NCBI RefSeq assembly: GCF_051622035.1
Contig: NC_135362.1
Span: 28,765,001-28,829,000 of the forward strand
Origin: Arctopsyche grandis
Taxonomy: Eukaryota > Arthropoda > Insecta > Trichoptera > Hydropsychidae
Direction: 5' to 3'
DNA length: 64,000 bases
The stretch's first letter is position 1; the number at the start of each line of letters is the position of its first letter. The position numbers were made by a program, and so were the translations under genes. The notes below the pieces were generated by a model. That model searched no databases and was not told the origin of the DNA. It was given only the letters and a program-made list of their open reading frames with translations. Shown one piece after another: positions 8,632 through 63,878 of the stretch.

Positions 8632-9176
8632 GCCAGCAGTTTGGCTTAGTGGTAGCGTATATATTTAGCATCACTGAGGTCAAAGGTTCAAATCCTCGCC
8701 ACTGCTGGTTAGATTTGGGGGTTTTGTGACTCCAAATCGATCGTTTCTCTATCAGAGATTGCCAATTTTATCTGATCATTGCTGAAACGGTTCCTGAAAA
8801 TTGATATTAGATCTAATCCTGTTGTCACAAAAATCTGCCTGTGTATAATTTGTAATAATTATACACAGTAATCTGAAATCTATAGATATCTCTATCGACA
8901 TCTCTATAATTTCGTATTTATTGGATGTATAAAAATTGTATACAAAAAAAAATCTAAAAATAATCCATAGATGTCACTATGATTATTATTTCTGATTAAT
9001 TGTTATATGCTATATATTTTGATTGTATATGTATGTATTACTGTATTTCTGATTTCTGATTGTTTATGTATTCTGTATTTCGTTAACGTACACCCATCGC
9101 ATTGGAGCAAATCTGTAATGGCGAGTGTGTATTGATTTGTGACAATAAAAATAAAAATAAAATAAAATAAAAAAAG
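8632..9176 (+). repeat. SINE, full length (tail type A)
   Basis: The head GCCAGCAGTTTGGCTTAGTGG..GGTTCAAATCC..CACTGCTGG has pol III A-box- and B-box-like blocks, and its ends pair like an acceptor stem (CCAGCAGT/ACTGCTGG). It is followed by the superfamily core (GACTCC..CGATCGTTTCT, GCCAATTTTATCTGAT, GAAACGGTTCCT), a CATAGATGTC box, a 3' hairpin (about 9088-9130) and an (AATAA)n tail. It begins eight bases after the hAT target duplication. Confidence 0.85.
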
Positions 9177-9260
9177 AATTTTGCAGTCAATATTTTTACA
9201 ATGTCTGAACAAGTCTGGACATGTCAAAAACTGCCCGAACGGTTCGAGACAACAGCAGAT

Positions 9261-9415
9261 AATGTTGATGTATAAAATGATTAATAAGATATATTATATA
9301 TTGAACCCATTTGTATTGAGAAAAGCTGTATTTTGTTTTAAAAATACTGGGGTCTTACTCGACCCCGGTTCGGGACACTCGTCCAATCTCGAAACACTCC
9401 GTCCTTCAAAGGTTA
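9261..9415. repeat. Dispersed repeat, copy 2 (GGGGTC/GACCCC hairpin)
   Basis: Partner of 3303-3454, same orientation, ending TCCTTCAAAGGTTAA. The central GGGGTC..GACCCC stem is intact in both copies although its loop differs. Confidence 0.45.
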
Positions 9416-9942
9416 AAACACACATTTTTAACTGGACGCTTGGCGTCCAGCACAGTGGCTACCGGGTTTCGCAGCACAGTAAGGCAAGCGAGCTTATAAA
9501 AAACGTGACAAATCAGACTCAAATATACGGCTGCTGAATTAAGTAACTCAAATCGCATTTGGCAAAAACATCACAGAAGAACTCTCAATCTGCGTAATCG
9601 AACGCGCGTTCTAAAACCACCCCCTCCCCCCGGACTAAACTTCTCAAACTCGGGGACGCAACAACTTGGCCGTCTGTTTGTTTGATCTTTGGCGTTCGCC
9701 ATCTGAATTTGCAAACGTTTCCGCAAACTTTTCCGACATTGTGTTTCACGGTAGAAGCTACATACGTATAATACGTCGATATGAGGTCGTTCGCGGTGAG
9801 CTCGTTGCGGATTAGAACTAATGGCCGGAGCACCATGTGGCCTTTTGCTAAATTCGTGTGATCCATATAAACCGGCATGTGTGTGTATATACACATTATC
9901 TGGAACGCGACTGGATTATTATCGGCGAAAAAACAAATAAAC
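9416..9942. other. Unassigned, moderately G+C-rich
   Basis: Region about 9595-9850 is richer in G+C and CpG than its surroundings. Overlapping open frames on the minus strand (about 100 residues) show no domain I recognise. It could be part of an untranslated exon or an unknown element. Confidence 0.25.
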
Positions 9943-9944
9943 TC

Positions 9945-10033
<89 letters not shown>

Positions 10034-10506
10034 GAATGTCTGTTTATCTGTCTGTCTGTCTCGTATAGGCTCCTAACAACAACTCAACCGATTACGATGG
10101 AACTATTAGGATTTGTTGTATGCATGTCCGGGAAGCTTACTGTGAAAAAACCTCGTAATAATAATATTCGTAATTATGATTTTACCGACACGAAAGTTTG
10201 AAGCGCCATTGTGTAGTCACGGAAATGTGTTTGTTGGTAACCACGTTAGTGTTACCAAGTTTATGACGACGACCAGTTAGTTTATGACGACACGGCGTTG
10301 AAGAGACGTTAGTTAGCTCCAACCATCACTTGAATCGGGAACGGGAACGGGAATTGCATGCCTTATTCTGCATTGCAACGCATACAATGCATTGCAATTG
10401 CAATGCAATGCATTGCAATTGCATTGCATCTGCATTGCATTGCAATTGCATCTGCATTGCAATTGCATCTGCATTGCAATGCATTGCAATTGCATTGCAA
10501 CTGCAT
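9943..10506 (+). mobile_element. Helitron (family 1), 5' part
   Basis: Begins TCTATATATAC with an expanded (AT)n tract, then TGTCTGTCTGTCTCG, GGCTCCTAA and ACCGATTACGATGGAACT, all repeated in the shorter sister at 10950-11276. A C precedes the TC instead of the usual A. The recognisable 3' CTAG end is missing: the copy runs into a TGCATTGCAA array and then a SINE. Confidence 0.6.
10358..10506. repeat. TGCATTGCAATTGCA array
   Basis: About 145 bases made of GCATTGCAAT and TGCATCTGCA permutations. Because the unit is nearly self-complementary, both strands read alike and the array can fold many ways. It grew from the GCATTGCAACGCATGC block that stands near the 3' end of the sister Helitron. Confidence 0.8.
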
Positions 10507-10937
10507 AGCCAGCAGCATAGCTCGGACGCTAAGCTTCTGCTTACCGTCAAGAAGGTGCCGGGTTCTATCCCTGAATGAAAATGAATTTTTCAGAGTATGC
10601 TGTTGGTCAGACCTGGATTTGTGACTCCAGGTTGATCGTTTCCTATCAGAGTTTGCCAATTTTCTCTGATTTCATTGTAGAAACGGTTCCCGGAAAAAAA
10701 ATTGGCTAAAAATCCTTCCTACCTACTATGTCACCACTATTTGAAAAATTTGATTGATGTACAATAAAAATTTATGTACAATTCATAGATGTCTCGTTAA
10801 TTTGCGAGTTTTTTCAGTGTCTCGCAATTCAACGACTTGTAATAAAAATGCTGCATTTGTATTTGTAATTGGCCAGGAAGGCGCATTGGGATTTACCTGT
10901 AAGGCCTTCCTGGTATATATGTAAAAATAAAAATACC
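10507..10937 (+). repeat. SINE, full length (tail type B)
   Basis: Head AGCCAGCAGCATAGCTCGG, with GGTTCTATCC as B box, and TGCTGTTGG closing the acceptor-like stem. Then the common core and the tail hairpin CCAGGAAGGC..GCCTTCCTGG (10873-10913) with loop GCATTGGGATTTACCTGTAA, and an (AAAAT)n end. About 95% like the copy at 41708-42147. Confidence 0.85.
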
Positions 10938-10949
10938 GGGTTCAGATAG

Positions 10950-11276
10950 TCTATACATATGTATATATAAAAATTAATGTCTGTCTGTCTGTGTGTCTCG
11001 AATAGGCTCCTAAACCACAGAACCGATTACGATGGAACTTTCAGGATTTGTTGTATGCATGTCCATGAAGATTACTGTGAAAAAAAATCACCCAAAAACG
11101 GAAACGGGAATGAGTGTCATTGCAACGCAATAATTTCAAATGTGTTCGCTGCCTGCGTTTTTCCGACAAATGGGAACGGGAAAGGGAACGGGAACGGGAA
11201 CGCGAACGGTAACGAAAACGGGAATGGGAATTGCATGCGTTATTGTGGCATTGCAACGCATGCCAGGTGAAGCTAG
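10950..11276 (+). mobile_element. Short Helitron (family 1), complete
   Basis: Starts TCTATACATATG, has the TGTCTGTCTGTCTG and ACCGATTACGATGGAACT blocks, a GGGAACGGGAAC repeat tract (11170-11235), GCATTGCAACGCATGCC, and ends GAAGCTAG followed by T. Non-autonomous: no Rep/helicase frame. The base before the TC is G rather than the expected A. Confidence 0.65.
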
Positions 11277-12015
11277 TATTAAAAAAAAAACCAACGAAAA
11301 TAAAAATCCACGCGCACTGAGTGTGGAATACGTCAAAAAGTTCGATTCTTGCTATACTATGTACATACATTTGTATGAAAATACATATACATACATATAC
11401 CAGATCGTCTCTTCTTGTCATTCTTTCAAATGAGGTAGATAGCGGATTATAAATTATAAAAAATAGCGGAGAACGAACCAAAGATGATGGAGAGTATGGC
11501 AGAGTAGCACAAAATATATATTGAAAATGGTTTGTATATCAAAGTAGATTAATGATCTTCTGAAGAATATAATATTGTGAAAGTTGATCGTAATGACATT
11601 GTTCCGTTCTAGTGATTTTTCTTTTCCTTTAAATGGCTGGGCATTTGTTATAAAATACATATCAATATGCGTCAATTCAAAATAATGTAGTTATGAATTA
11701 GCTTTGAATTCTATACATGTGTACATATACATACATATATAAGAGCGTAAACAAACTTTTTTAAATCAGTTTGAAAATGTACGTATAAAATAAAAAAAAA
11801 CCACCATTCTCTCGAGTAAAAGTACAATTTTTGGTTGAGGTAAAAATATTTTAAAAATGTAAGTGTATAAAATTCATAATATCTTTATATGTACGTAAAA
11901 AAAATCAGCCTGATTTGTTGAGCGGTTTGGGAGATAATTTAATACAAATACAAAAAAATTTACGCCGTATCGATAAGAATGAAATAAAAAAAAAAAAACG
12001 GTTAAATCAGAAAAA
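11277..12015. other. A+T-rich, no feature recognised
   Basis: No coding exon or element boundary seen on either strand. Confidence 0.35.
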
Positions 12016-12175
12016 TTTGCAACTTCTGATAGGAAACGATTGACTTAGTTTTAACCAACAGCACTACAGAAATACTCGGAGTCAATTCTTTTCAATCGAG
12101 GTCAACCCAGGGACTGAACTCGGCAACCTCTTGGTGGTTAGCATTAACTCAACCACCGAGCTATACTGCTGGCTA
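12016..12175 (-). repeat. SINE head and core, tail lost
   Basis: Minus strand: TAGCCAGCAGTATAGCTCGG head with a B-box-like block, closing GCTGTTGG, then the start of the core (CGTTTCCTATCAG). The 3' part is missing. Confidence 0.6.
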
Positions 12176-13321
12176 AACTATCCAAAAAGCAAAGATTCAT
12201 CCCATTTTATCAAAATCATTCGGGTCAAGATACAATAACTTTTCGATCCGTAGTATAGAGCAGTAGCAATACATCCGTGGTACACGTGCCCAATTTTCTC
12301 AAAATACCGGGAAATTTTACTTAATAGTGAAATTTGAAACTTGAAATTTCACTTAAGCCTATGGATCCATGGGCCTGAAAATGCCGCTAGGCATTGTATT
12401 TTGAGCATGTACAAGTAAACAAGAATACTACCCGCTAATTCTTCCAGGTAAAATTGAAAATCCGTGTCATTCATTTGTCAATATTTATAAAGACTGGTTT
12501 ACACTGGAATTTCTGATTTTTCAATTGGTTGAAAGACATCTTAGCGCGAGACAACTGGGCGCAAGACATTTTAGCGCAATACAACTTGGCGCTAGCTAGC
12601 TAGACACCAGACAACTGGGCGAAAAATAAACCGTGAATATTTTTGAAAAAAAAAAACACACTCAATGACCATACTTTCTACAGACTCCGACTAAGACTGA
12701 AATTTTCGCACAATCCGGATCCAATGATTTTAAAAATGTAAAATTTAATATTTTCCCATTGGGTTGGCTTTCGAATATCTCTGGAGTACTAAATATACGA
12801 ATATATGTACATACATAGTATATGATCGAACTTTTAATTTAACTTTTTTTCTTTCAATATTTTATTTATTAATATGTACAAACTCAAAGTAATAAAATAT
12901 ACGCATTTGGCTCAATGAATTTGTCAACAAAAATCAGGCCTATCCTCAATTTAACCAAAACGTGAGAAAAAGACAAATATAGAAACACAATGACTTATGT
13001 AAATAGATCTACATTTGTACATACATTGGGCATTTATGACTTTTATTGAATCATTTTACATTATCGAGTAAAATAATACATGCGATTTACACGCGAAATT
13101 AGAGTTTTTGAAAACATTTTTAACGAATCTGACTCCAAAGCCCTACAAAAAAGTAATAAAATGCTTCAAAATATAATTATAGCTTAAACTAAAAGTTTCA
13201 ACTCAAACAAAGCAACAGAATACGAGCCGTTCTACGCAACGAATAAGCTTATCAAATTTCATTTTAGACTGTAATTTGGTTGTATGTATAAAAAAAGTAG
13301 GTACATATGCACCTACATATT
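12176..13321. other. No gene; short GCGC-AGAC repeats
   Basis: At 12533-12620 several imperfect units of the kind TTAGCGCGAGACAACTGGGC follow one another. Otherwise A+T-rich with nothing recognised. Confidence 0.4.
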
Positions 13322-14097
13322 AACCAGCAGCGTGATCTAGTGGTGAGTATTGAATTATTTCGTGCTTGATGTCACGGGTTCGATTCCCACTAAGAGTCTC
13401 GTTGTTGGCCAGACCTTGGTTTGTCGAGGTCGATCGTTTTTTATCAGAATTTGCCAATTTTTCTGATTTTCATCATTGATGTATAATACACTAGATGGGC
13501 CCTGACGTGTGATTTTGGTCGGAGATCTTGTCTTCACTAACTGAGGGGTGCGGGTGGTTTAACTAGCGGGGAAGTTGGGAGGAAAAAATGTTTTTTCCCT
13601 ACGACGCAGCGGTACCTACCTACCTACTAAGAGAAACTGTGCATGCGCCATGTATTTTGCATGCGCCAAAAGGGAGACCAGTATAAAGCGTGAGGGCGGA
13701 TCTAGTGTATTATACATCAATGGATTTTCATTGAAACGGTTCCTTTAAAATTAGCTTTTCCTTCCCAATTTTCTGCTGCAAACCTTGAGCTATTGTTATA
13801 TCATAGTTTGCATTCGATAAACAACCATAGATGTCTCTTTGGTTGTTTATCGAATGCAAAAATTCGTATTGTTACATGAAAAATGCTATTAATCGTATTT
13901 ATACGATGTTTGTAATATCTGACCATAGATGTCAGGTATTGTTTCGATTTACACATGTATGTATTGTAATAATTATGTATTTAGATGTCTCGTTAATTAT
14001 GGGTTTTCAATGTCTTGTAATAAATTAGACGTAGTGACGACCTGGAGCTAATGTGTAATGTCACTATGGCGAAATTGTAAAAAACAAATATAAAACC
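13322..14097 (+). repeat. SINE (tail type E) split by a MITE
   Basis: Head AACCAGCAGCGTGATCTAG, B box GGTTCGATTCCCACT, closing CGTTGTTGG. The core is interrupted after GATTTTCAT by MITE 13474-13722, and GATTTTCAT repeats on the far side. The tail hairpin TAGTGAC/GTCACTA lies at 14032-14066 with loop CCTGGAGC..TGTGTAAT. A self-complementary pair CGATAAACAACCATAGATG / GTTGTTTATCG sits at 13816-13855. Confidence 0.75.
13474..13722. mobile_element. MITE family 1, intact 249-bp copy
   Basis: Ends CATTGATGTATAATACACTA (with GAT following) and its exact complement form a 23-bp perfect terminal repeat. The 9-bp duplication GATTTTCAT lies at 13465-13473 and 13723-13731. The uninterrupted SINE sequence elsewhere confirms the empty site. 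Nine-base duplications fit Mutator-like elements, among others. No coding capacity. Confidence 0.85.
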
Positions 14098-15535: not shown

Positions 15536-15554
15536 TACATACATACATATATAA

Positions 15555-15918
15555 AACCAGCAGCGTGGACTTAATGGTTAGTATATTATGCTTCGATTCG
15601 ATTCGATTCCCACTAGTGGCTGTTGGCCAGACCTTAGTTTATGACTCCAGATCGATCGTTTATTTTCAGAGTTTGCCAATTTTTCTGATTTTCATTGAAA
15701 GGGTTCCTGTAAATTGGAATTTTCTTTCAAATTTCTCATTCAAATCTCAAGTCCTGTAAAAATGTATCCATAGATGTCACTCTCGATGATGTTTGTATGA
15801 ATTCGCATTGTATAAAAATGCTTGTATTAATTGTATTGTATCTGTATTAGTACACTCATTGATTTGGAGCAAAGGCAAGTGTACATGTTCGATTGAAATA
15901 AAATAAAATAAAAAATAT
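15555..15918 (+). repeat. SINE, full length (tail type C)
   Basis: Head AACCAGCAGCGTGGACTTAA, B box GATTCGATTCCCACT, closing GCTGTTGG, then the core, a CATAGATGTCACT box and the tail stem TACACT/AGTGTA (15851-15882) with loop GATTTGGAGCAAAGG, followed by (AAAAT)n. The loop lacks the CTGTAA block found in the other tails. Confidence 0.8.
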
Positions 15919-18802: not shown

Positions 18803-18846
18803 GTGTACACTCATGTGTACCACTGTTTGTACATCACTCCTCAACA

Positions 18847-19584: not shown

Positions 19585-20100
19585 ACCATTCACCTCCATT
19601 TTACTTGATTACCATTCTCCTAATTTCGCCCTTCTTTCTACTCTTTTGCATTATCACGGGTACCATTCTAGCACTTCTTTTTATTTAATTTATACCAGGA
19701 AGGCCTAACACGTAACCCCAATGCACATTCCTGCCCAGAAATATTATACATACAAACATTACTATACAAAGTAAATATATATCAATTAACATCCACACAG
19801 ACATTTATGGTCAAATTTGTAACTTTGCAGCATTTAATACAATTCAGCGGAATTCCAAATTGTTGAAAACTTGAGATTTTGCGAGAAAATGGGCAAGGTT
19901 GCCAAATTGTTGGAACCATTTCAATGAAAATCAGATAAATTGGCAAACTGTGATAGGAAGACTTGGAGTCACAAATACAAGGTCTGTGGGATTTGAAACC
20001 GTGACCACTTTGTTCAAAGCATTATATGCTAACTAGTCTTTTCTTCTGGTTTTTCCCCACCTTTCGTCCACGTGGCCCACCCATTGCCATTTATATGTAA
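19585..20100 (-). mobile_element. RTE LINE 3' fragment split by a SINE
   Basis: Blocks CGGGTACCATTCTAGCACTT and CACCTTTCGTCC..CCCATTGCCATTT match the RTE-like fragment at 42150-42440, here separated by the minus-strand SINE 19690-20040. Antisense to the LINE. No open frame is left. Confidence 0.5.
19690..20040 (-). repeat. SINE, aged copy
   Basis: Minus strand: degenerate head with GGTTTCAAATCCC as B box, core (TGTGACTCCAAG, CTATCACAGTTTGCCAATTT, TTTCATTGAAATGGTTCC) and a tail resembling type B (CCAGGAAGGC.. at the low end). More diverged than the other copies. Confidence 0.6.
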
Positions 20101-23207: not shown

Positions 23208-23665
23208 ATATTTTTTATTTTATTTTTACATATATACCAGGAAGGCCTTACAGGTAAACCCCAATGCGCCTTCCTGGCCAATAACAAATTTACAAATTAC
23301 AATTCAGCATTTTTTTTTATATAAATCACTGAATTACGAGACACTGTAAAACTCGCAAATCAATGAGACATCTATTAATTTGTACACAAACTTATTAATT
23401 ATACATTAATTAATAGCAAATTATAGGTGACATATCGTATAGGAGGGATTTTTAGCCAATTTTTTTTCCGGGAACCGTTTCAACAATGAAATCAGAGAAA
23501 ATTGGCAAACTCTGATAGGAAACGATCAACCTGAAGTCACAAATCCAGGTCTAACCAACAGCATACTTTCAAAATTCATTTCCATTCGAGGCTCGGGCCC
23601 AGGGATCGAACCCGCCGCCTCTCAACGCTAAGCAGAAGCTTAACGATTGAGCTATGCTGCTGGCT
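23208..23665 (-). repeat. SINE, full length (tail type B)
   Basis: Minus-strand copy of the type seen at 10507: head TAGCCAGCAGCATAGCTCAA, GGTTCGATCCC B box, core, and tail hairpin CCAGGAAGGC..GGCCTTCCTGG at the low end (about 23238-23279). A short core fragment of another copy follows at 23666-23710. Confidence 0.8.
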
Positions 23666-23734: not shown

Positions 23735-23990
23735 ATGTATTTTTTATTTTATTTCATAGAACGTGAACAATAGCCTTTACAGATCGCTCCAAAGCGAAGA
23801 GTGCACTTATAAGATACAATTAGCTGTTTCATCTGTAACATCATCCACAGTGACATCTATGGAGAATTTTTTCATATAAATTGGCGAACCTCAAGATGAT
23901 GAAATACTTGAGATTAGCAAGAGAGATAGGAAAGGAGATGCCAATTTTACAGGAACCATTTCAATGAAAATAAAAAAAATTATCTTTAGC
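23735..23990 (-). repeat. SINE 3' two thirds (tail type C)
   Basis: Minus strand: core end (TTTTCATTGAAATGGTTCCTG), ATCTCTCTTGCTAATCTCAA block, CATAGATGTCACTG box and a TGCACTC..tail arm with (AAAAT)n. The head is missing. Confidence 0.65.
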
Positions 23991-25074: not shown

Positions 25075-25223
25075 TAACTCTCGCCGAACATAATGAAAGA
25101 ATCGATAAAAATCGATAAATTAATTTTTCGACGAGACTACTTTGTCGCGACTCGAACCGATCACCCCAAATAGCCTGAATATGGGTCTAAATTGAGCTAA
25201 TGGTCACGTGCATCACGCCAAAT

Positions 25224-25608
25224 ATATATCCAATATTTAATCGCCATAGTTCTTTATCAACGCTAAATAAAATAAAATTATATCGCGCGCTCATATTACC
25301 ATTATTAACCTATGCTTCACCTGTATGGAATAACGCCTCGAATACTAACCATTCCAAGCTCCAAGTAATACAAAATAAATCCCTAAAAATAATTTATAAT
25401 ACACCCATATATACTAACCTGAAAAAACTGCATGCCAAATATAATATTCCGTTTGTTACAGACATTACTAACAAACTAACCAGTAGATTCTATGACAGAA
25501 TCACTAATAACCATACTAACATACTTGTGAAGAGTCTCGGTGATTACAACAAAATGTCTATACCCTTCAGGTATAAACACAGATTACCTAAACACAATCT
25601 GCTTTAGG
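25224..25608 (+). pseudogene. Jockey reverse transcriptase, C-terminal fragment
   Basis: About 127 codons without stops up to a TAG near 25606. Family traits visible: a thumb-like helix LNKIKLYRALILPLLTYASP, then VWNNAS and LQVIQNKSLKIIYN, as in the C-terminal part of Jockey and related polymerases. The catalytic FADD-type box and endonuclease are absent because the copy is 5'-truncated. It has no start of its own; the upstream ATG at 25200 belongs to the host Helitron. Confidence 0.8.
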
Positions 25609-25875: not shown

Positions 25876-26348
25876 ATCACGCCAAATCAAATAAATTGGA
25901 ATAAAACAAAACTATTCAAATACATTGTTTACTATGAGATTGGCCATTTTTAAGCGGTTTATATTATAAATACCGTTTATATTACAAATACTGAGCGAAG
26001 CCGGGTAAAACAACTAGTATAAAATAAACAAAAGAAGTCTATTAATGAATGTATTTTTCCAAAACTAGTTCCATCTTCTTCATTGTTTTTAAAATGTAAT
26101 GCTCACAATCTAAATGCCAAGCCACAATCTAAAATACTCTGCTGTTAGGGATTTCCATCGGGAAATTCTGCTATGGTTATTAATTCAGAAATTCAGGTGT
26201 AAAGCAGGCTTTATAAACATTGACGCGGATTACACGACCCATGTTCAATGCTACCTGTTTGTTGATATATATATATTTACTAACTTAATTTACTTAATTA
26301 AGTTTAAATTTTTATTAGATTTACTTCTATTAAATCATACAAAATACT

Positions 26349-27172
26349 ATATTGTGCATACGTAAGAAGTATTGTTGAGTTTGCATCCCAAGTTTGGAAC
26401 CCAGAGTACTCTGGTGCAAGAGACAGATTGGAGCGCATTCAGAAGAGATTCTTGAGGTACATCAGTAGCCGTTTTGGATTATCCTATACTTCCTATGAAG
26501 ATGCTTGTAGGTGTCAGCATCTACTTCCACTTGTCAAAAGAAGGGAGATAGCTGACATCTCAACAATTTTGAACATCCTTAACGGCTCGATCGACTGTCC
26601 TCAATTATTGAAAAGACTATCATTGCGTGTGCCAAATAGAATGACTAGATGTAATGAGCTCCTTTACATACCTAATACTTTTTCTAATTATGGAAGAAGC
26701 CCATTCATCTGGCGTGCAAGCTCCACCGTCAACACACTAATTTTAACAATTTCTATGTTTGACTTATTTAATATTAATGCTATACAAGCTAGAGTGATTA
26801 TTGCAAATTTGTTTTTCGATGATTAATTTTATTGAAAATTTACGATTGTGATTATGAATTTTTATTTTGATGTATTTATTTTGTCTTTTTGTTTTTTGTT
26901 ATATATTATATTATTTCAAAATTTTTATCATATTATTATTCTTATTATTTGGATATTTTTATTATACTGTTATTTCTATTTTTTTTCTTTTTGTTTTCTC
27001 TAACTATATTACTCTATTATCATTTTTGTTTCTTATTTTAAATGTTTGAGCTTTTCTTTTTTTTACCTATATGTGAAAATTATTAATGGTTTACTTAACA
27101 TAATTATGTTTTTTTACTATCAATCTATGTAACTTAATAAACTGTAAATTTTCCAAATAAATAAATAAACAT
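26349..27172 (+). mobile_element. LINE 3' end (I/Jockey/CR1-like), 5'-truncated
   Basis: From about 26349 one frame encodes YCAYVRSIVEFASQVWNPEY, then LERIQKRFLRYISSRFG and a conserved LLPLVKRREIADISTILNIL, up to a stop at 26824-26826. These are C-terminal motifs of non-LTR reverse transcriptases. A U-rich 3' region and AATAAATAAATAAAC tail follow. The open stretch lacks the catalytic core. The clade is not certain, and no target duplication was identified. Confidence 0.75.
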
Positions 27173-33430: not shown

Positions 33431-33515
33431 TGTCTTTGGCCAGGAAGGCGCATTGGGTTTACCTGTTAGGCCTTCTTGGTGTAAATTAAATAAAAAATAA
33501 AAAATAAATAAAATA
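33431..33515 (+). repeat. SINE tail fragment (type B)
   Basis: Only the 3' hairpin GGCCAGGAAGGC..GGCCTTCTTGG with loop GCATTGGGTTTACCTGTTAG and the (AAAAT)n end is present. A 5'-truncated copy. Confidence 0.7.
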
Positions 33516-38762: not shown

Positions 38763-39541
38763 AAACAGCGGCGTGGACTAGTGGTTAGTATTGTAGCATA
38801 TGCTAAAAGGAGCCGCCGTTATAATTGGTTTTCTTAAGTGCTGTCGGCTAACAATGGAGACCTCTGAATGGACTTAGTCGTCGGTAACGGCAACAGCCAC
38901 TTCCCGCTGGAGTTCTCAGAACTGACAGCTCGAGACCGTGGGACTGCATATCTGGTAGGTAGGTAGACAAACGTGTCGAGGAAGATGCACTGAGCGACCT
39001 CCCCTTTATAAGCAGGTACTTAGGCCATATCAAGGCATTCTGGACGGAGCACTGACAGTGCGTGGATCTCCTTAATCATCCAATAAATGGTGTGAAGCGA
39101 CTATGGCCTTTTCTTTGGATCCTCCACCCACCCCTACGCAACAGTATATTATGTTTTCGAGCAGAGTGGTCACGGGTTCGAGTCCCACTAGAGTCCCGCT
39201 GTTGGCCAGACCTTGACTTGTGACTCCAGGACGATCGTTTCTTATCAGACTTTGGGAATTTTTTCATTGATACGGTTCCTGTAAATATTGGCATCTACTT
39301 TCCTATCTCTCTTGCTAATCTCAAGTTATTCATCGTCTTGGGGTTCGCCAATTTGATTATAAAATGCTGTGAGAATTTCTCCATATATGTCACTGTGGAT
39401 GTTCGTATGAAATCGCATTGTATAAAATGCTTTTGTATATTGATTGTATTGTATCTGTTTAAGTGCACTCGTCGCTTTGGAGCCATCTGTATAGGCAAGT
39501 GTTCATGTTCTATGAAAATAAAACATAATACGAAAAAAAAT
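38763..39541 (+). repeat. SINE (tail type C) split by a solo LTR
   Basis: The head AAACAGCGGCGTGGACTAGT..GGTTAGTAT is interrupted by LTR 38792-39143 and resumes GTATATTATGTTTTCGAGCA, GGTTCGAGTCCCACTAGAG, CCGCTGTTGGCC. The core and tail are complete, with the hairpin arm GTGCACTCGTCGCTTTGGAG near 39473. Confidence 0.85.
38792..39143 (+). mobile_element. Solo LTR, 352 bp
   Basis: Starts TGTAGCATATGCTAAAAG and ends CCCTACGCAACA. The 4-bp duplication GTAT lies at 38788-38791 and 39144-39147, and the SINE gives the empty site. Contains CATCCAATAAATG as a possible poly(A) signal. Left by recombination between two LTRs of a Ty3/Gypsy- or similar-class element whose body is not in the window. Confidence 0.85.
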
Positions 39542-40082: not shown

Positions 40083-40475
40083 ATTTATTTCCTATGCGTT
40101 TGGAATCACGTAATTTTTCGAACTTTTGTTTGTAATGATAAAAATGCTAAAAAAAATCCTATAACCTGAAGAATTTCACATCAAAATTAATTCAACCATT
40201 TGAAGGCTTTAAGAGGATATATGTATGTATGTATGTACAGACTTTAATATATTTTTCGTACAAAGAAAAAGATAATATGAGTCATATAATAATTTAATAC
40301 TAGTTTTAAGTGCTCATATTTACCCGGGTAACAGTTATTACAAATCCGTATAAAATTCTCAACGATCGTATTGAGAAATAAATGAATAGTGTATTATTTT
40401 AAATAAAAAATAAAGCTCAATTTTCTATTACATACATATATGCTAACCCACGCCTGGGCAAACTTTTCAAATGAA
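40083..40475. other. A+T-rich, no feature recognised
   Basis: Nothing supported. Confidence 0.35.
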
Positions 40476-41388
<913 letters not shown>

Positions 41389-41537: not shown

Positions 41538-42455
41538 TCATCGTCTACAGCCATTCACCATCCACTGCTGGATGAAGGCCTCTCTAACACGCTTCCACTC
41601 AGCTCTGTTTTGCGCCACATTCATCCATCTTTCCCCACACATTTGTTGGTACGGGTCTGGTTGACCACCTGTATAACGCATACCTTCATGAATTGAATCT
41701 TTCATATAGCCAGCAGCATAGCTCGGACGTTAAGCTTCTGCTTACCGTCAAGAAGGTGCCGGGATCTATCCCTGAATGAAAATGAATTTTTCAGAGTATG
41801 CTGTTGGTCAGACCTGGATTTGTGACTCCAGGTTGATCGGTTCCTATTAGAGTTTGCCAATTTTCTCTGATTTCATTGTTGAAACGGTTCCCGGAAAAAA
41901 AATTGGCTAAAAATCCTTCCTACCTATGTACTATGTCACCACTATTTGAAATTTGATGGATGTATAATAAAAATGTATGTACAATTCATAGATGTCTCGT
42001 TAATTTGCGAGTTTTTTCAGTGTCTCGCAATTCAACGACTTATAATAAAAAAAAAATGCTGCATTTGTATTTGTAATCGGCCAGGAAGGCGCATTGGGAT
42101 TTACCTGTAAGGCCTTCCTGGTATATATGTAAAATAAAAATAAAATATGTCATCATCATCATCATCTACAACCATTCGCCATCCACTGCTAGATGAAGGC
42201 TTTTCCAACACGCTTCCATTCGTCTCTGTTTGTCGCAACTCTCATCCATCTCACTCCACCCATTTTCCTACTTTCTTCTAACTATCTTCCCTGCGGTCTT
42301 CCTTTTACCTTTTTTTTTCATTCTCTCGGGTACCATTCAAGCACTTCTTTTGTCCACCTTTCGTCCATTCTTCTAGCCGGTAGACCCGCCCATTGCCATT
42401 TCAATCTCTTAATTATATCTACATACTATAACAATAAAATAAAATAAAAAAAAAA
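41538..42455 (-). mobile_element. RTE-clade LINE 3' ends, two antisense units
   Basis: On the minus strand, frame pieces read CGERWMNVAQNRAEWKRVRE then AFIQQWMVNGC (41545-41650) and MRVATNRDEWKRVGKAF (42190-42250), the C-terminus of RTE-type polymerases, followed by a (GAT)n tail (ATCATCATCATC on plus). AAAACAATTAAAT flanks the whole block at about 41525-41537 and 42455-42467. A SINE (41708-42147) sits between the two units. Confidence 0.7.
41708..42147 (+). repeat. SINE, full length (tail type B)
   Basis: Near-identical to 10507-10937: same head, core and hairpin CCAGGAAGGC..GCCTTCCTGG, (AAAAT)n end. A recent pair. Confidence 0.85.
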
Positions 42456-43624: not shown

Positions 43625-43676
43625 TAGTTTTGGACCATTGTGACATTACAGGAAGAACCTAATGCGCCACAATGGC
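43516..43676 (-). repeat. SINE-type tail (type D) with (TTTA)n
   Basis: On minus: hairpin CCATTGTG..CACAATGG (43635-43675) with loop GCGCATTAGGTTCTTCCTGT then AATG, followed by a (TAAA)n tail of about 105 bases. The loop matches the other tail types while the stem is different. The body upstream (43677-43990 on plus) is A-rich and not recognised. Confidence 0.65.
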
Positions 43677-44004
43677 CTACATTTGAAAAAGATATAAAAA
43701 CATGATATAAAAACAAGTAAACTGTAAATAAAGGAAAAAAGCAAAAGCAGAAAACATGGTAAAATAAAATAATAAAAAAAAAGTAACAAAAGGAAAATAA
43801 TACATCATTCAGAGAGAAAAAAAAATAACAAAAGTGTAAAAATTAAAAATAAAATCCATAAATCCCATTCTTTGTTTACACTGAGCAAAATTAAAATAGT
43901 ATATAAAAATGTACAAAGGAGTATTTTTATTACAATCAATGTACACTCGTCATTACCATAAAAGTAGAAAGCATAGAGTGGTCATTGTTAACTAAAGTAT
44001 CGTC
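43677..44004. other. A-rich, unassigned
   Basis: May be the body of the element whose tail is at 43516-43676. It does not match the SINE core. Confidence 0.3.
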
Positions 44005-44945
44005 TAATGGTGCTTACGGACTAAACCAACGACGATTTTGGGCCGACTTTTTAACCAGCAGTAGCGTACAAAATATCTAAATAAAAATTAAATTTTAAAT
44101 TAAATATCAAAATCAAGCTAAAGAGCGAGATTGAGCTAAAATTAGATCATCGTTGATGTTTTGAATTACAACAATGTTTTGAATTACGACGATACGCATT
44201 TAAAACCAGAGAAATATTATAATTTCTCTTCTTACGAGCGAAAAAAAATATTGTTAAAGTCGTCACGAGATGTTACTGTATTTCCACGTGGATGATCGAT
44301 AAAAAAAACAATTCAAAAAAAAAACGCGGTGTTGGATGTCGGTGATTTGTCAAAGGGGTTTTTTTCTTTCGTCGAAATAAAATTAATAATCACACATTAT
44401 CCGATAAATTTTACCTCTGAAATGATTTGATTACTTGATTTATTTCGAAGAGAGAAACAATTGAAGAATAAAAAAATCCGTTTGATGTGACCGACAACAC
44501 CCCGGGTTAGCTTCCATCGTTGGATCACCCATACTAATACATGATATATTCTCAGTAACTGCGCATTACGGGGAAGTAAAAATAATAATTCTTTGATTTT
44601 TTTTCGATCTTAGTGCGTATCTTCGTAAGTCAAAACATCTTCGACAAACAAAAGTCGAGGATTACCTGTATGTGATTGTTGATGATCTAATTTTAGGTCA
44701 ATCTCGAAAATTTATTTAAATTGTGCATGTTCTGTTTAACTTTCAATATTTAATTTTAATTTTAATATAATGATTATAATTTTATTTTGATACTTGAATT
44801 TAATTTTAATATAAATAGTTTTAATTTTGATATTTAATTTCAATTTTTAAATTTAATTTTTATTTCGATATTTTGTACGCTACTGGTTTTAAAAGTTGGC
44901 CTGTGGGCCGTTCGTTGGCTTGGTGCGTACGCACCATAAAAGCGA
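44005..44945. mobile_element. Long-inverted-repeat (foldback) element
   Basis: Left ATGGTGCTTACGG..AACCAACGA, GGGCCGACTTTTTAACCAGC, AGTAGCGTACAAAATATC and CGAGATTGAGCTAAAATTAG.. all recur as complements on the right (44680-44945). Arms are about 150-260 bases with A+T expansions between blocks. No coding frame. Class and target duplication not determined. Confidence 0.7.
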
Positions 44946-44986
44946 GCCATCGTAGAGAGAGACGGAAAGTCAGACGAGAGGGGTTT

Positions 44987-45357
44987 GGTGCAAACGATCG
45001 AAAAGCGCCAGACAGATTGAACCACAGATTAACTGGATGCCTGCTTTAAACGAAATTCTCGACTTCACGAATGAAAAATTGCACATCAGATGACGAGTAA
45101 CCTTTCGATGTGCACGGATGCAATTATTAAAATGGTAATTATTTAAATTGAGTTGGATCTTTCTGGCGAGTTTTTAATAATTTAATAAGGAAAAATTCGG
45201 AACTAAAGTATCAGAAGCACAGAACGTATACAGGGTAGGTATGTCGGGACTTGGGGTAGATTTCGCTTAGTGTAAGTGCGAGCAGTGCGCACGCATAAGG
45301 TACACGTGTCGTTAATCTGTGGTTCAGTCTGTCTGGCGCTTTTCGATCGTTTGCACC
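44987..45357. mobile_element. MITE family 2 (GGTGCAAACGATCG ends), 371 bp
   Basis: Second copy of 14801-15171, same length, with terminal repeats of about 47 bases (GGTGCAAACGATCGAAAAGC..). It starts about 40 bases after the foldback element. Confidence 0.85.
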
Positions 45358-45496
45358 GCATTGAGACGAGATACAAGAGAGAGAGAGACGAAGTTTAGTA
45401 AACAATGAGCAAACAATGAACAAACTATGCCGCGCAGAGTTTTTGTAGCAACATTTTTGGAGGCTGAGAGCGATTCTATGCATTCTACTTATATGG

Positions 45497-45842
45497 TCGT
45501 TACAGATCGCTCCAATGCGACGAGTGTACGAGAACGGTCAGACAACGTATACAACGAATTCAATAAACATCGAATACAATAATTAATCAAGTACAGAAAT
45601 AATAATCATAGATACATCTATGGATTATTTTTAGATTTTGTGCACAATTATTATTACAATTTTTATACACAGGAAATGATCTATTACCAATTTTAAGGGA
45701 TCGTTTCAACAATGATCAGATAAAATTGGCAAACTCTGATAGAGAAACGATCGATTTGGAGTCACAAAACCCCCAAATCTAACCAGCAGTTTGGCGAGTC
45801 GATATAAATATATACGCTACCATTAAGCCAAACTGCTGGCTG
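45497..45842 (-). repeat. SINE, full length (tail type A)
   Basis: Minus strand: CAGCCAGCAGTTTGGCTTAA head, B-box region altered, closing CTGCTGG, core and a tail arm with GTACACTCGTCGCATTGGAG..CTGTAA. Confidence 0.75.
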
Positions 45843-51108: not shown

Positions 51109-54100
51109 ATGAGTGATGATGACGAATTACCAACTAACTATGACGTCATCGTCTATGGGACAGGTTCTTGTTTTCAATTCCATTAATTCACATTTAAATA
51201 GTATATAATTTAGAAACAGTTGCTCCCATATTGTCACCTGGTAAATTTTCTTTGTTCAAACATTTACCCTTCAAAGTCGCATACACTTGAGAAATATCAT
51301 CGTAATAGAGTATAATTCATATGCATCAAAGAAAAATCATAAAACGTTCCCCTTTTATTTCTGAAAACAAATAAGTCATCAAATTTTAAACCCACAAAAA
51401 TTAAAATACATATTCGATTTATTTTAATACTGGAATAATATTTTTTGGGTATATATTTTATACTTTTAGTACTACTATTACTTATAATTTTAGTATAACG
51501 TTTTAAATCACGTTCTCTAATAGTATTGTTAAGATTTTGTAGGTATTTTGTATCCATATCTTATTTCTTAATTCAATCAATATATTTAATTTTATAATAT
51601 TTGCAATAAATTTCTGCCTAATTTATAACAAAAAAATTAAATATTTTTATTACTACTTTTCATGTGAAAATAATCATGGACTCACAAATTCGTCGATATG
51701 CTTTTAGGAATGACAGAGTCAATAGTCGCAGCAGCATGCAGTAGGATTGGCAAAAAAGTGCTACATTTTGATTCAGACGACTTTTATGGTGGAATTTGGG
51801 CCTCGTTCAATTTAGAAGCTCTCTTGAAAATCGCTGAAGACGACCAAGAAGACGAAAATTATAATGATATCGGACTCTACAATATCACCAGTCAATGGTA
51901 CATCAAAAAGTTAGTATCAGATGTGTTACGTGTGTAAAATTGTACAATAGGTATATTATTACTTTTCCTGAATGTTTTTAGAGCTGTACCTAAACCACCT
52001 GTTATCGAAACACCAGATGAAGAAAAAACAGATACGAACCCTTCGGTCACAAAAACAGAAAGTGATTCGCCAAAGAATATATTGCCCGAAGATGACATCA
52101 GGGACGAGATACATTATGATCATGTTAAACATAGAACATTATGGACACAAGATTCTGTCAGGAAAGAATATCGTCGATTCAATCTTGATTTAGTACCAAA
52201 GGTATTTAAAATACATCAATATAGAATTATTCAAAATCAAATCCGTCCTGAGAATATTTGCGAAATATTGTGTACATGTCATATAGCGAGTTGAATTTTT
52301 TACTACTATAAAAACCGTTAGAAAGAACTGTTAGACACGCCGTCACGCTAGACTTGATGATTTGGTTCAAAGATTTTGCTCAGATAATAATATCAAGATT
52401 CCATATCCTTGTAGCCGGTATTCTGTAACATAAGTCGCATTGAATACCCATAAATATGTGCGGAAGCTTTCAAGTCTAATTTACAGCAGTAAAACAAAAT
52501 AGACTTTATAGGATGGGAAGTTGTGTTGACGAGTGTCCCAGCCTATAGAAACTTGGTTAGTTAAACTTGGACCTTTTATTTGTTCAGTATACATACAAGG
52601 TTTATTGCATGTATGGCATAGTAGCTAATTGCTTTTTTTCGGAGGAGTGGGCAGGCTGAACTCCAGAGGCTCCACTGACTTCTAAGCGGCGTGGACTAGT
52701 AGTTAGTATATTATACTTTGAGCAGAGTGGTTACGGTTTTGAGTCCCACTACAGTCCCGCTGCTGACCAGACCTTGGTTTATGACTCCAGGTCGATCGTT
52801 TCTTATCAGAGTTTGCCAATTTTTCTAATTTTCATTGAAACGGTTCCTGTGAAATTAGCATCTCCTTTCCTATCTCTTTTGCTAATCTCAAGCTATTCAG
52901 CGTCTTGAGGTTCGCCAACTTGATTATAAAATGCTGCAAAAATTTCTCCATAGATGTCACTGTGGATGTTTGTATGGATTCGCATTGTATAAAATGCTTA
53001 CGTATATTGATTGTATTGTATCTGTGGTTCGGTGATTATTGGTCACAAAGCGCTCGCCCAAAAGTCACCAAAATCTCTATAACGGAACATTTGGCAGCCG
53101 AAAAGTCCATCATACTAACGATAACTATCATACCAACGAGAACTCGAGTGCCAAATATTTCATACTCGCTATTTTCATGGCAAAAATCGTCTTTTGGGCG
53201 ATCGTGATGTGACTAATAATCCAATTACCGTATCTGTATAAGTACACTCGTCGCTTTGGAGCGATCTGTTAAGGCGAGTGTATATGTTCTATGAAATAAA
53301 ATAAAATATCCTAGTCATCATGCCTTAAAAGATTGTTTGGTGCAGAGCTGTATGATGAGATCATGCTCTCGGATTCCAAAGAGCTTGGGTTCGTTTATTT
53401 GGAACTAGTCGAATCTGTGCCCTGGAGAAGTGAATGAGATCTTTGTATGTATGTTTTTTTGTGTTTTACTTTCAGCTACTGTTTGCTCGTGGAGAATTGG
53501 TCGATCTATTGATAACTTCGAACATTGCACGATACGCCGAGTTTCGATGTGTCAATCGCGTCCTGACATGGCTTAACGGTATGCTGGAACCGGTGCCGTG
53601 CTCTCGGGCCGATGTCTTCGCGACCAAACACGTCTCCGTTGTAGAAAAGAGAATGTTGATGAAGCTGTTAACTTCCCTGATGGAGTATGGTGAAAAGGAA
53701 TCGTTAGAAATTCCCGGTGATTATTGTTAATCGTTTGGAATGAACGTTTATATGAATATTGTATGTAATATCTATTTCGAATTTTCAGATATTGAGAATA
53801 AAACCTTCTTAGAGTATTTGAAAAGTAAAAAGCTGACGTCTAATCTGATTCATTACGTTTTGTATGCTATTGCCGGTGGCACTGAATCAATGTCGTGCTC
53901 TGCCGGTATTAAAAAATGCAAAATGTTCCTCACCAGTTTGGGCAAGTACGGCAATACGCCGTTTCTATGGTCGATGTACGGTTGTGGAGAATTGCCGCAG
54001 TGCTTCTGTCGGTAAGGATTTATTACTGTCGAATGTATTCATGTAATTGTCTGTGTTTGAATGTCGCATTGTTATAATGGTAATGCAATTTCCGTGTGTA

Positions 54101-59393: not shown

Positions 59394-59506
59394 TGAAGGG
59401 CTCGGGGCAAGATAGTGTCAACCATCATTTTGGTCCAAATTTTCCAAGATTCAGGAGAATTTGGACCAAAATGATGGTTGACACTTATCTTGCCCCGAGC
59501 CCTTCA
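59394..59506. repeat. Near-perfect hairpin, 49-bp arms
   Basis: TGAAGGGCTCGGGGCAAGAT.. on the left pairs with ..ATCTTGCCCCGAGCCCTTCA on the right, with one extra base (GATAG against GATAAG) and a loop of about 15 bases near 59443-59457. The middle of each arm reads GTGTCAACCATCATTTTGG. TA pairs flank it, so it may be a tiny TA-inserting element. Confidence 0.85.
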
Positions 59507-60550
59507 TATATGCGAAACGTTTAAAAGTGCATGTACGAATCCTTGAGCGCGGCAAACAATAAATAAAGAAATAAGTGTAAAAACATGCCGTTTAGTGTGA
59601 TCAGATTAGAGACGCGCGTGGTATGAGAGAAACCATAAAATGTAAAGTAGAAATACGGTTTCTTCAGTCTGTGGTCCCTTCGAGATAATAAGTTTATGTA
59701 CTCTGCTGGCTAATTCAATATTCAATACATATAATAACAATAGTAAAAAACGAAAACTAGGACAGGTTACATCATATTTGTAAACGTAGATCGAAAAGAA
59801 CAATTTCAAACCGGTTTGAAACGTCGTATTCCGGAGATTTTCACTAATGTTTAAGATTGTCATGGTTTCTTCATTGTTTTTTGAAAAAAATACATAGTTG
59901 AAGGAAACGTTATAAATGTTCCAAACTTTCTATAATTGTCGGAACCTACAAGAAGTGTCCCAACTCAAATGCTAAAGTTACTTTTTGCCGATTGGTCTGA
60001 TAATTTTCTTTTAAAAGTCTTTCTGAGTTGTCGTCTTCTTCGCACGGTTCCAAGAGCTCTGCAATCAAAACCGATATGCAAAAAGGACTTTCCATTCCGT
60101 GGTTTTACACACTCGTGTATGTAACTCAAAGTTTGCATACAAATTTCTATTCGAAAAAAAATAAAACAATAAATATTATACATTTAAAAAGGCGTCGTAG
60201 AATTTTAGTACATATTTTGCATATCAATTTCGATTGTAATCATATTGTAAACTATGAAATCTTTAAACATGACTAGGGAGATTCAATTTAGTACTTCATA
60301 CATCCGACAAAATCATTACAAGTCGATACCGTACTCGATTTCACCAACGAAGCCTCTACGGAGATTCACACCGTCTCTTGAAAGCTGTGCTGAATGAAGA
60401 TCTCCGTAATACCTCGGTGAATGAAACCGAGTATAAAGCGATCTCCTCTCTATAACATACATATATGTATATATATATATATATATACTACGACTATAAA
60501 AATGGAATATACCGAGTGGAATTTCACTCAAATTAGTACAATACATCGGT
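59507..60550 (-). other. Downstream flank of IMPDH
   Basis: The part next to the stop (60316-60550) is of higher complexity than the rest and is probably 3' untranslated sequence. An (AT)n run lies at 60467-60487. No second gene seen. Confidence 0.35.
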
Positions 60551-62104
60551 TTAATAGAGCCTCTTCTCGTACGAGAACAGGCCGTGAACGTTGCCTTCGA
60601 TCTGTGCCGAGTGCGTCCTGCGCATGAATCTCAACTCGCCCGAATACGTCATCTTCTGCAGGTCGGTGACGGATTTCGCCCCTATGTCCTGGCAACTGTG
60701 CTGTATGCCCGACTTGAGATACGGCAGGAACCTCAAAACGGAGCCCTTATCGACGATGCTGCCGCTGACGCCTTGAGCCACCCGGTGTTTGTCCGACTCG
60801 TTGTGGAAGTAGCGGCTCATCGCAGAACCTTTACCGTCTTTGTGCTCCATCGCTTCCAAGCTGCCCATGCCTCGGTACTTCTTCAAGCGGACGCCGTCCG
60901 AGAAGAAGTACTCTCCGGGCGCTTCGGAAGTCCCGGCCAAAAGCGAGCCCATCATTACGGTGGAGGCGCCGAGTGCCAGACTCTTGACGATGTGTCCCAC
61001 GGATTGTATCCCCCCGTCGGCGATGACGGGAATGTCGAATTGCCGAGCATACGAAGCGACTTGGTATACGGCGGTGGCTTGAGGACAGCCGCAAGCCATG
61101 ACCTCTTGCGTTATGCAGATGGAACCGCTGCCCATTCCGACTCTCAGAGCGTCGACGCCGGCGTCTATCAAATTCTTAGCCTGTCGTCTGGTCACGACGT
61201 TGCCACCGATGACATCAACATTGGGATAGTTCTTCTTGATGTATTTGATCATGTCGACTTGGAAGACGGAATTGCCCTGCGACGAGTCTATGATTATGAC
61301 GTCGACTCCGCTGTCGACGAGCATTTTCAATCTGAGCTTGTCCTCGATTCTAGTGCCGATTGCGGCGCCGACTAGCAGCTGTTTGTTGAGATCTTTGGAG
61401 GCGTCCGGGTAGCTGCGGGCTTTCTTCAAGTCGGTGCGGGCGATGAGAGCGACCAGTTCGCCGGCCTCGTTGACGATGGGCAGTTTGCCCTTCTTGCTCT
61501 TCTCGAGGATGGAGTTGGCCTGCTCGAGAGTGATGCCCGACTTGGCCGTGATCATGGTGTGGACGGGGGTCATGACGTTGTCGAGGGTCAGCTCGGGGCT
61601 CTTCTCGCGGAAGTCGATGTCCCTGGAGGTGACGATGCCGAGCAGCTTCTCGCCGAGCTTTCCTCGCTCCGTGACGGGGTAGCCCGTGAAGCCGTTCTTC
61701 TTCTTGGCCGCGAGCACGTCGGCCACCGTGTCCTGGGGACCCATGCACACCGGGTCGCGGATGAAGCCGTGCTTGTACTTCTTCACCTTGAGCACCTCGT
61801 TGGCCTGGTAGTCGGGCGTGCAGTTGTGGTGGATGATGCCGATGCCGCCGCACAGCGCCATCGCCACGGCCATGTCTGCCTCCGTCACGGTGTCCATCGG
61901 CGTGGAAACGAGCGGCGCTTTGATGGAGAGTCGACGCGTCAGACGAGACGACAGCCCCACGGCCTCGGCCTCGAAGTCGATGTAACCCGGCAGCAGCAGG
62001 AAGTCGTTGTAGGTGAGGCCTTCCGTGCGGGCGAACAGCTCCATCGCCGATAGCCCGTCCTGCAGCTCCTCAGCGAGGGTCGCCACGGAGCCGGAGCCGT
62101 TCAT
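60551..62104 (-). CDS. IMPDH: Inosine-5'-monophosphate dehydrogenase, single exon
   Basis: Oxidises IMP to XMP with NAD+, the committed step of guanine nucleotide synthesis in the cytosol, as a tetramer. The 517-residue frame is collinear with animal IMPDH (human IMPDH2 has 514). N-terminal [20 protein letters not shown] and [12 protein letters not shown] start the barrel. Two CBS domains are inserted at about 113-232. The catalytic loop is [13 protein letters not shown] with C330. IMP-binding GGIQSVGH (365-371), [19 protein letters not shown] and the flap RYF (431-433) are present, and it ends SYEKRLY. No residue looks lost. The frame has no intron and is clearly G+C-rich, unlike all its surroundings. 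On minus the leader CTCCCGTCCACTCATCAG just before CGCGAAATG could be a splice acceptor, so a non-coding first exon upstream is possible. Known as raspberry in Drosophila. Confidence 0.96.
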
Positions 62105-62359
62105 TTCGCGCTGATGAGTGGACGGGAGGAAACGGAAGAGGTGGTTCGCGGGTGCCGGCAGCCCGCGGTGTGTCGTCCGCGCAGCACGTGGCGCCCCACA
62201 ACAATACTACGCCGCTCCCTCACACCGCGCTCTGCAATCGCACGTTCCTTGTGCAATTCACTTTTCCAATTGGAATTTTTGACGTTTCTTCTAAATGTAA
62301 AATGAAAAAAAACTATCCTCTTGTTTACTTTGTAGCAATTTAGCACATCTTGTACACAA
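62105..62359 (-). promoter_or_regulatory. 5' flank of IMPDH
   Basis: The first 130 bases above the ATG are G+C-rich (GCGTGGCGCCCC-type on plus, about 62185-62200), then composition falls back. A CCAAT (TCCAATTGG, 62265-62273) is present. No clear TATA box. Confidence 0.4.
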
Positions 62360-63878
62360 GCCAGCAGTTTGGCTTAGTGATAGCGTATATATTTAGCATC
62401 ACTGAGGTCATAGGTTCGTGTCCTTGCCACTGCTGGTTAGATTTCGGGGGTTTTGTGACTCCAAACCGATCGTTTCTCTATCAGAGTTTGCCAATTTTAT
62501 CTGATCATTGCTGAAACGGTTCCTGAAAATTGGTATTAAAAAATCTAATCCTGTTGTCACAAAAATCTGCCTGTGTATAATTTGTATTAATTATACACAA
62601 GTAATCTGAAATCCATAGATGTCACTATGATTATTATTTCTGATTAATTGTTATATTCTATATATTCTGATTCTATATGTATGTATTACTGTATTTCTGA
62701 TTTCTGATTGTTTATGTTGTGGCGGCTCGCTTATACGACGGTCGAGTTTGGTTGCCTTCCTGCGAGTGGGGACCAACCCGGCTGAGTTCGGAGAGCTGCT
62801 ACTCACTCTGTCTTCAGCTGTCATATAATAAACACGTGCATTAACATGCCAGTCGTCTCATTCGTTCATCCTCCATACTGGTGACCCCCAACATCGAGCC
62901 ACGCAGCCTCGATCAATTTCAACATGCCGCTCATCCCTGCCTCGCCGAGCCAGGCGGGGAAGCAACCCGCCGCGCCCCCATCGCCATCAACACGCGTCGC
63001 GGCCCGCGGGTGACAATAAACGAGCAGACACGGCTACCTACCTACCTACCGACGTCCAGCCACAACGTCGATGACAGGTGCTTACAAAAATGGGGGAGCG
63101 AATGAGACGACGATCGTGACAGCTGGATGTGGAGTCATGCGCGATCCACTACACATAGAACGGTTATCCAGCACCACAAGATTCATCACACACCACCTCA
63201 GCACCATCATCATCATCATCAAGGCCCCGTCCGTCCCCACGAGCGTCGTCACGCCGAGACGGGCGGTAGCGCTACAACACCTCCACGAGCCACAACGACT
63301 CACAGTCCAGCTCGGAGTATCATCAACCACATCGATGCCCCTGCCGCCCCCGCCGCCCCACCAACCGACATCAGCCTCGGAAGAGCGGCGCCGCCGCAGC
63401 ATCGCATCGCGCGACCATCGGACCAGCCACCGTCCTGCTCGCGACGTCACCGCCCTCGAATCTACCGACCATTCAGGGCGGTACACCTATGTACACAGCG
63501 GATGACCCACGTCAACAATTTTTTTCTCCCCACGTAATAATTTTTTCTCTTTGTGTAACAATAATTTTTTTCTTTTGGTAAAATTTGTTTCTTTGTAATT
63601 TTGGTATCGCTGATGCTGGGGGGGAGTGATGTGGCGGCTCGCTTATACGACGGTCGAGTTTGGTTGCCTTCCTGCGAGTGGGGACCAACCCGGCTGGGTT
63701 CGGAGAGCTGCTACTCACTCTGTCTTCAGCTGTCATATAATAAACACGTGCATTAACAAGCCAGTCGTCTCATTCGTTCATCCTCCATAATGTATTTCAT
63801 TAACGTACACCCGTCGCATTGGAGCAAATCTGTAATAGCGAGTGTGTATTGATTGTGACAATAAAATAAAATAAAATA
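62360..63878 (+). repeat. SINE (tail type A) split by an LTR element
   Basis: Head GCCAGCAGTTTGGCTTAGTG, B-box region GGTTCGTGTCC, closing CACTGCTGG, core and body up to GATTGTTTATGT. It resumes after the LTR element as ATGTATTTCATTAACGTACA, then the hairpin loop GTCGCATTGGAGCAAATCTG and an (AAAAT)n tail. Sister of 8632-9176. Confidence 0.85.
62718..63789 (+). mobile_element. Short non-autonomous LTR retrotransposon (TRIM-like)
   Basis: Two 160-bp LTRs, 62718-62877 and 63630-63789, both TGTGGCGGCTCGC..CATCCTCCATA, differing at about two sites. A primer-binding-like CTGGTGACCCCCAACATC follows the left LTR and a purine run GCTGGGGGGGAGTGA precedes the right. The 4-bp duplication ATGT is at 62714-62717 and 63790-63793. 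Each LTR has ATAATAAACACGTGC as poly(A) signal. The 752-bp interior is G+C- and CAC-rich with overlapping frames but no protease, polymerase or integrase, so it must be moved in trans. Similar to Ty3/Gypsy in layout; class inferred. Confidence 0.88.

Follow-up and report, generated by a model that had tools for sequence, protein, structure and literature searches.

In fish, a ZfL2-1 long interspersed element (LINE) given the stem of another LINE retrotransposes at about half the wild-type level, and one given another's loop shows a dramatic fall; in the available text of that report, recognition by the ZfL2 LINE protein is specific for the loop and general for the stem (PMC4176376). Tails of plant L1 LINEs and short interspersed elements (SINEs) combine compensatory stems with a conserved loop, according to the accessible part of PMC3747384. 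Here we describe dispersed elements ending in a hairpin of this kind in a 64,000-nucleotide stretch of the insect Arctopsyche grandis (contig NC_135362.1, positions 28,765,001 to 28,829,000; hereafter the window, whose own numbering is used). We put at roughly 75% the joint probability that these elements are SINEs of one superfamily, derived from transfer RNA (tRNA) and sharing a core, and that a partner LINE supplies the reverse transcriptase which reads their conserved hairpin as a handle.

A tail hairpin in three stem classes

Thirteen tails were placed by hand and aligned; T3a and T3b are identical letter for letter, leaving 12 distinct tails for the pair counts. The common shape is a lower stem of 11 base pairs, an internal loop GCAU/UAAN (GCAT and TAAN in the DNA) that is unpaired or partly paired, an upper stem UGGR/YCUG of 4 base pairs and a tip of 4-5 nucleotides. 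The tails and the copies that carry them are as follows (fractions are lower-stem pairs; z, the dinucleotide-shuffle score).

9088..9130, plus strand: tail hairpin T1a, class I; 52.1 bits with a covariance model, 9/11
8632..9165, plus: full SINE copy T1a; tRNA-like head 8632-8712, core ~8720-8800, ATAGATGTC block 8967-8975, hairpin, A-rich tail
63805..63847, plus: tail hairpin T1b, class I; 9/11; SINE 62360-63878, interrupted by a 1.08-kb element flanked by long terminal repeats (LTRs)
45491..45529, minus: 5' half of tail hairpin T1c, class I; 3' arm at 43951-43941 (minus), the arms separated by a terminal-inverted-repeat element at 43956-45496
53242..53283, plus: tail hairpin T2a, class I; 11/11; z -3.89
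23765..23806, minus: tail hairpin T2b, class I, decayed; 7/11
39463..39504, plus: tail hairpin T2c, class I; 9/11; SINE 39143-39520 with shortened head
15850..15886, plus: tail hairpin T2d, class I; 9/11, upper stem deleted; SINE 15557-15910
21789-21746, minus: degenerate copy T2e; 3' arm not placeable
10872..10914, plus: tail hairpin T3a, class II; 11/11; SINE 10506-10932
42080..42122, plus: tail hairpin T3b, class II; 11/11, letters of T3a; SINE 41707-42142
23236..23278, minus: tail hairpin T3c, class II; 11/11; z -4.64; SINE 23666-23210 (minus)
33439..33480, plus: tail hairpin T3d, class II; 11/11; tail alone, no head or core directly upstream
19694..19735, minus: tail hairpin T3e, class II; 9/11; SINE 20049-19675 with T2-type head, a tail chimera
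43634..43676, minus: tail hairpin T4, class III; 11/11; z -6.04; long (AAAT)n run on the 3' side, ~250 T-rich bases upstream
14028..14070, plus: tail hairpin T5, class III; 10/11; z -2.35; SINE 13320-14090 with a 250-base insert (~13474-13723)
52794..52823, plus: shared core, identical to the 30-letter search string

The classes were obtained by pairing every 5' arm with every 3' arm, which joined the T1 and T2 tails (class I), the five T3 tails (class II), and T4 with T5 (class III). A sequence-only reading of this DNA had proposed five tail types with different stems. All five stems and all five loops that it quoted are present, with the loops given in an order other than that of the stems: GCATTGGAGC..ATCTGTAA belongs to the tail at 9088, GCTTTGGAGCGATCTGT to 53243, GCATTGGGATTTACCTGTAA to 10873, GCATTAGG..TTCCTGTAA to 43635 (minus strand) and CCTGGAGC..TGTGTAAT to 14032. 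Five was an overcount. The 5' arm of T2a pairs at 11/11 positions with the 3' arm of T1a, so that the tails at 53243 and 9088 share a stem, and T4 and T5 (43635 and 14032) have related stems that cross-pair at 10/11 and 9/11; there are therefore three stem classes. Between T4 and T5 there is one double change, U-A to A-U (alignment columns 6 and 38), with three one-sided changes that keep the pair and one broken pair; this difference is the best sign of stepwise compensation.

The tail hairpins are genuine. Covariation was assessed on tails from the three stem classes by pair counts against 500 shuffles of the partners. Among the 12 distinct tails, 159/176 cells were paired (90.3%) versus 66.5% after shuffling, a level that none of the 500 shuffles reached, and sliding the partner arms by 1-3 columns brought the paired cells down to 34.5-52.3%. 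Cells with double changes numbered 47 (19.5 in shuffles) and the covariation score was 0.676 (0.244 in shuffles); changes on both sides were found in 8/11 lower-stem pairs and in 1/4 upper-stem pairs (A-U to G-C). The alignment of all 13 tails, with 11 lower-stem pairs in six, 10 in one, 9 in five and 7 in one, keeps a single frame with little gapping, the tip differing by one base and T2d being without eight columns. The letters of the internal loop and CTGT are mostly kept, and internal loop, upper stem and tip stand at the same positions in all three classes. As in stringent-type tails, the hairpin lies near the 3' end and a short A-rich repeat follows, the loop is conserved and the stem changes are compensatory; the A-rich run starts within ~20 bases 3' of the hairpin in the 11 copies checked as well as in T3d, T4 and T1c.

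A second arrangement (fold B, with CATT and AATG paired and GU bulged) pairs 85.6% of 201 cells, compared with 90.3% of 176 for the shape above (fold A). One of its pairs is altered from A-U to U-A between the T1 and T2 tails, and its double-change pairs are not above shuffles (143/500). Both folds may be present in the tail RNA.

The likeness of the loops could in part be chance, if each class had taken its tail, with a separate hairpin, from a different one of three unrelated LINE families, and no selection acted at present. The arms of classes I and II are indeed unrelated (3-6/11 cross pairs), but those of classes II and III cross-pair at 5-8/11, and the shared positions of internal loop, upper stem and tip in every class also speak against such an origin. 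As a control for chance, two loose class II/III loop patterns (6 and 25 matches) gave 31 stretches, 24 of them distinct, in prokaryote and viral DNA; these had 2-7/11 lower-stem pairs and never a full stem, versus 7-11/11 in the 13 window tails. A scan of the window's plus strand at the stem spacing showed 10 or 11 pairs at 63 of 63,957 positions, so the stem by itself is not rare and the combination of stem and loop is. We consider three unrelated sources very improbable.

A 43-position covariance model found 14 places in the window at E < 0.001 (E 7e-4 to 5e-14), namely the 13 tails from which it was built and the 5' half of T1c, and the search is thus an independent check for T1c only. In T1c, which was part of no alignment or model, the two hairpin arms that flank the inserted element pair at 11/11. 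Searches for relatives gave no match to the class I loop with stem, to the core (two forms) or to the class II and class III strings in viral contigs, and none to the class I string in prokaryote genome contigs. No relative of the T3b SINE was found in plasmid or phage DNA, and a literature search with sequence strings returned one unrelated paper only.

The sense strand is preferred because of G.U pairs, which make up 44/176 cells (among them 21 of the 44 upper-stem cells, where U.G occurs in 11/11 and G.U in 10/11 lettered rows); the opposite strand would pair just 65.3% of cells. Fold energy was lower in sense than in antisense for 12/13 tails, and class II tails scored 57-59 bits forward versus 10.4 bits for reverse-strand model matches. 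Folded singly, T2a and T3c gave the model fold exactly and T4 nearly so (dinucleotide-shuffle z in the five tails so treated: T1a -2.19, T2a -3.89, T3c -4.64, T4 -6.04, T5 -2.35). The G.U pairs also bear on a mutational origin, in which reverse transcription mends imperfect palindromes by template switching or fold-back, with no need of selection for protein binding. Such repair would fit the full 11/11 stems of 6/13 tails and of T1c, and the small number of independent stems; it yields Watson-Crick palindromes, however, rather than a quarter of cells as G.U, and most letters of the internal loop and of CTGT are conserved too. We regard it as unlikely. Double-sided changes, a conserved loop and the sense-strand preference uphold the sequence-only reading in its claim of selection on RNA shape.

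One core, three heads and exchanged tails

The 30-letter core occurs at 16 places in the window at ≤9 mismatches of 30. It is preceded by tRNA-like heads and, in many copies, followed by the hairpin; uninterrupted units of ~350-530 bases are short, dispersed, multi-copy and without a protein of their own, as SINEs are. By identity the heads form three groups (with T1, with T2 and with T3), so that the single head and core proposed earlier stands for the core and gives way to three head types. An internal RNA polymerase III (Pol III) promoter with A and B boxes is seen in T1a (TGGCTTAGTGG and GGTTCAAATCC) and T2c (GGGTTCGAGTCCC), the boxes being recognised by their consensus. Among four heads folded (T3c without its 3' part), CCAGCAG pairs with CTGCTGG as an acceptor-like stem in T1a and n34k and partly in T2e. 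ARAGORN found no tRNA.

The head of T3e is 73, 81, 78 and 69% identical to four T2 heads versus 52, 52 and 58% to three T3 heads, making T3e a clear chimera of a T2-group head and a class II hairpin. Tails have therefore been exchanged at least once on one core, in line with the exchange suggested from the sequence at first. In T5, a class III hairpin is joined to a head resembling the T2 group (67-74%). For T4, the tail at 43635 that had been assigned to the same head and core, no SINE head or core lies within 600 bases upstream on its strand; T4 and T3d may be truncated SINEs or LINE ends.

Between core and hairpin lies the ATAGATGTC block, which T1a shares with 12 other SINEs and which occurs in all three stem classes. 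It is exact in 10/13 aligned copies, has one change in T1c, T2c and T3e, and is not present in T2e. A long stem in T5 and good folds in some T1, T2 and T3 copies had suggested a second covarying hairpin here. Across the 13 copies the suggestion failed, with 72.5% paired versus 70.2% shuffled and a covariation score reached by 82/500 shuffles; the region has no consensus fold and is retained only as a conserved sequence block.

Several SINEs are interrupted. The element in T1b (62715-63792) has a GC-rich interior between terminal direct repeats of 166 bases that are 98% alike; a TGGTGACCCC stretch follows the first of them, ATGT stands on either side of the element, and the whole looks like a small non-autonomous LTR element. 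The one inserted in the T1c hairpin (43956-45496) has terminal inverted repeats of ~26 bases (CCATANAAGTAGAANGCATAGA, 4 mismatches). The 250-base element inside SINE T5 (13474-13723) has a second copy on the opposite strand at 615-865, 87% alike. Elsewhere in the window, a ~450-base stretch occurs as two near-identical tandem copies at 40474-41384 (98-100% over the compared parts), and Pfam identified an IMP dehydrogenase as a single intronless open frame of 551 codons (62206-60551, minus), a piece of histone PARylation factor 1 and a hAT-type transposase at 6343-8493.

A putative handle for a partner LINE

We propose that the sense SINE RNA ends in the conserved hairpin as a template handle for the reverse transcriptase of the partner LINE. 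The specific reading by a stringent-type enzyme would cover the internal loop, upper stem and tip, whereas the lower stem would be recognised just as a helix; it could then drift or be exchanged, provided that it remained paired. The hairpin pattern is what such loop-specific, stem-general recognition would leave.

The hairpin might instead serve RNA stability, 3'-end protection or a host protein, with no role for a LINE reverse transcriptase. That no hairpin-bearing LINE was found within the window is consistent with this, but T3d and T4 are tails without an upstream SINE head or core, and the hairpin adjoins the A-rich end as in LINE and SINE tails in the available text of PMC3747384. We consider such a role rather unlikely.

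Candidate LINE pieces were recognised by eye in the frames 25191-25607 and 26308-26826, and the label remains a by-eye reading because Pfam names a family for neither. Their 3' ends gave no match to the covariance model up to E 10, and the piece at 26308 had no relative in the DNA collections searched (prokaryotes, viruses, phages, plasmids). The T4 body is 58% T (145/249), like the stretch after 26308-26826 (189/324); the alignment score between the two, 53, is within shuffles (mean 48.5, 95% 61). Translation of 467 bases at T4 met stops in all three frames.

Several observations weigh against a handle read by a partner LINE. The search of the 64-kb window yielded no LINE with the hairpin. 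With only three stem classes there are few independent events, and because of this two covariation measures do not clearly exceed the shuffled values: the count of pairs changed on both sides (9 versus 8.2, reached in 185/500) and the number of pair types (reached in 42/500). The tails were cut by hand within the frame of the structure, which biases the counts towards it, and the decayed copy T2e was excluded since no position could be assigned to its 3' arm. RNAalifold predicted the lower stem with 10 of its 11 pairs but not the upper one, the antisense strand gives the better fold for T2b, and T1a and T5 alone, the two with the z scores of -2.19 and -2.35, fold differently from the model. 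As for the SINEs themselves, 12 copies showed no convincing target-site duplication, the repeats seen being a 6-mer (T1b), a 9-mer in core sequence (T2b) and an AT-rich 8-mer (T2d). Runs of 4-8 T lie between start and hairpin in 11/11 copies, some of them in inserts or the head, and may stop Pol III before the tail in some copies.

More tentatively, several SINE lineages could be served by a single LINE lineage, or by a few that share a loop-reading domain, through one RNA code. This code would hold the internal loop, upper stem and tip constant and leave only the lower stem free to vary, so that three stem sequences and three kinds of head are mixed; the ATAGATGTC block would be a possible second element of the handle.

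Relation to described LINE and SINE tails

Rfam includes the 3' element of the LINE UnaL2, whose loop is GGAUA. The window gave no match at the gathering score of any Rfam family, none of the 50 lax matches (0/50) lay on a tail hairpin, and T3a alone gave 3 weak unrelated matches. The stringent-type UnaL2/ZfL2 LINEs and SINEs (L2 clade, fish) resemble the window tails in their 3'-tail stem-loop with a specific loop and an exchangeable stem, as far as the available text of PMC4176376 describes them; they differ in loop sequence, and in the window their counterpart, a partner LINE, is not seen. The tails of monocot L1 LINEs and plant SINEs (Ohshima) likewise have a compensatory variable stem and conserved loop letters common to LINEs and SINEs, but belong to the plant L1 clade, with loop UCU, flank CGAG and a known LINE, according to the accessible part of PMC3747384.

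Among lepidopteran SINEs, HaSE1/2 and PxSE1-3 have tRNA-derived heads and a shared central domain with different 3' parts, and LINE-like tails occur in several of a group that also includes Metulj and ZenoSINE. The ZenoSINE head is described as of unknown origin, unlike the tRNA-like heads here. In the available parts of these reports no covarying tail hairpin is described, a distinction that is drawn from descriptions rather than sequences (PMC3272025, PMC8010984, PMC6685494), and the accessible literature on SINEs, of Lepidoptera and others, that have LINE-like tails and a central domain in common does not describe this hairpin.

The covariance model picks such tails from raw sequence, with the reservation that 13 of its 14 places were training tails. 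Applied genome-wide, it could reveal the partner LINE by shape where stem sequence fails, as well as changes of SINE tails, and a partner LINE, if found, would make loop reading by its protein testable outside the fish L2 elements. Within the published record as available to us, stem-tolerant, loop-specific tails are a known kind (PMC4176376, PMC3747384) and the window SINEs are a new and unusually clear case of it, their three stem classes round one conserved loop forming a natural counterpart of the published stem-swap experiment.

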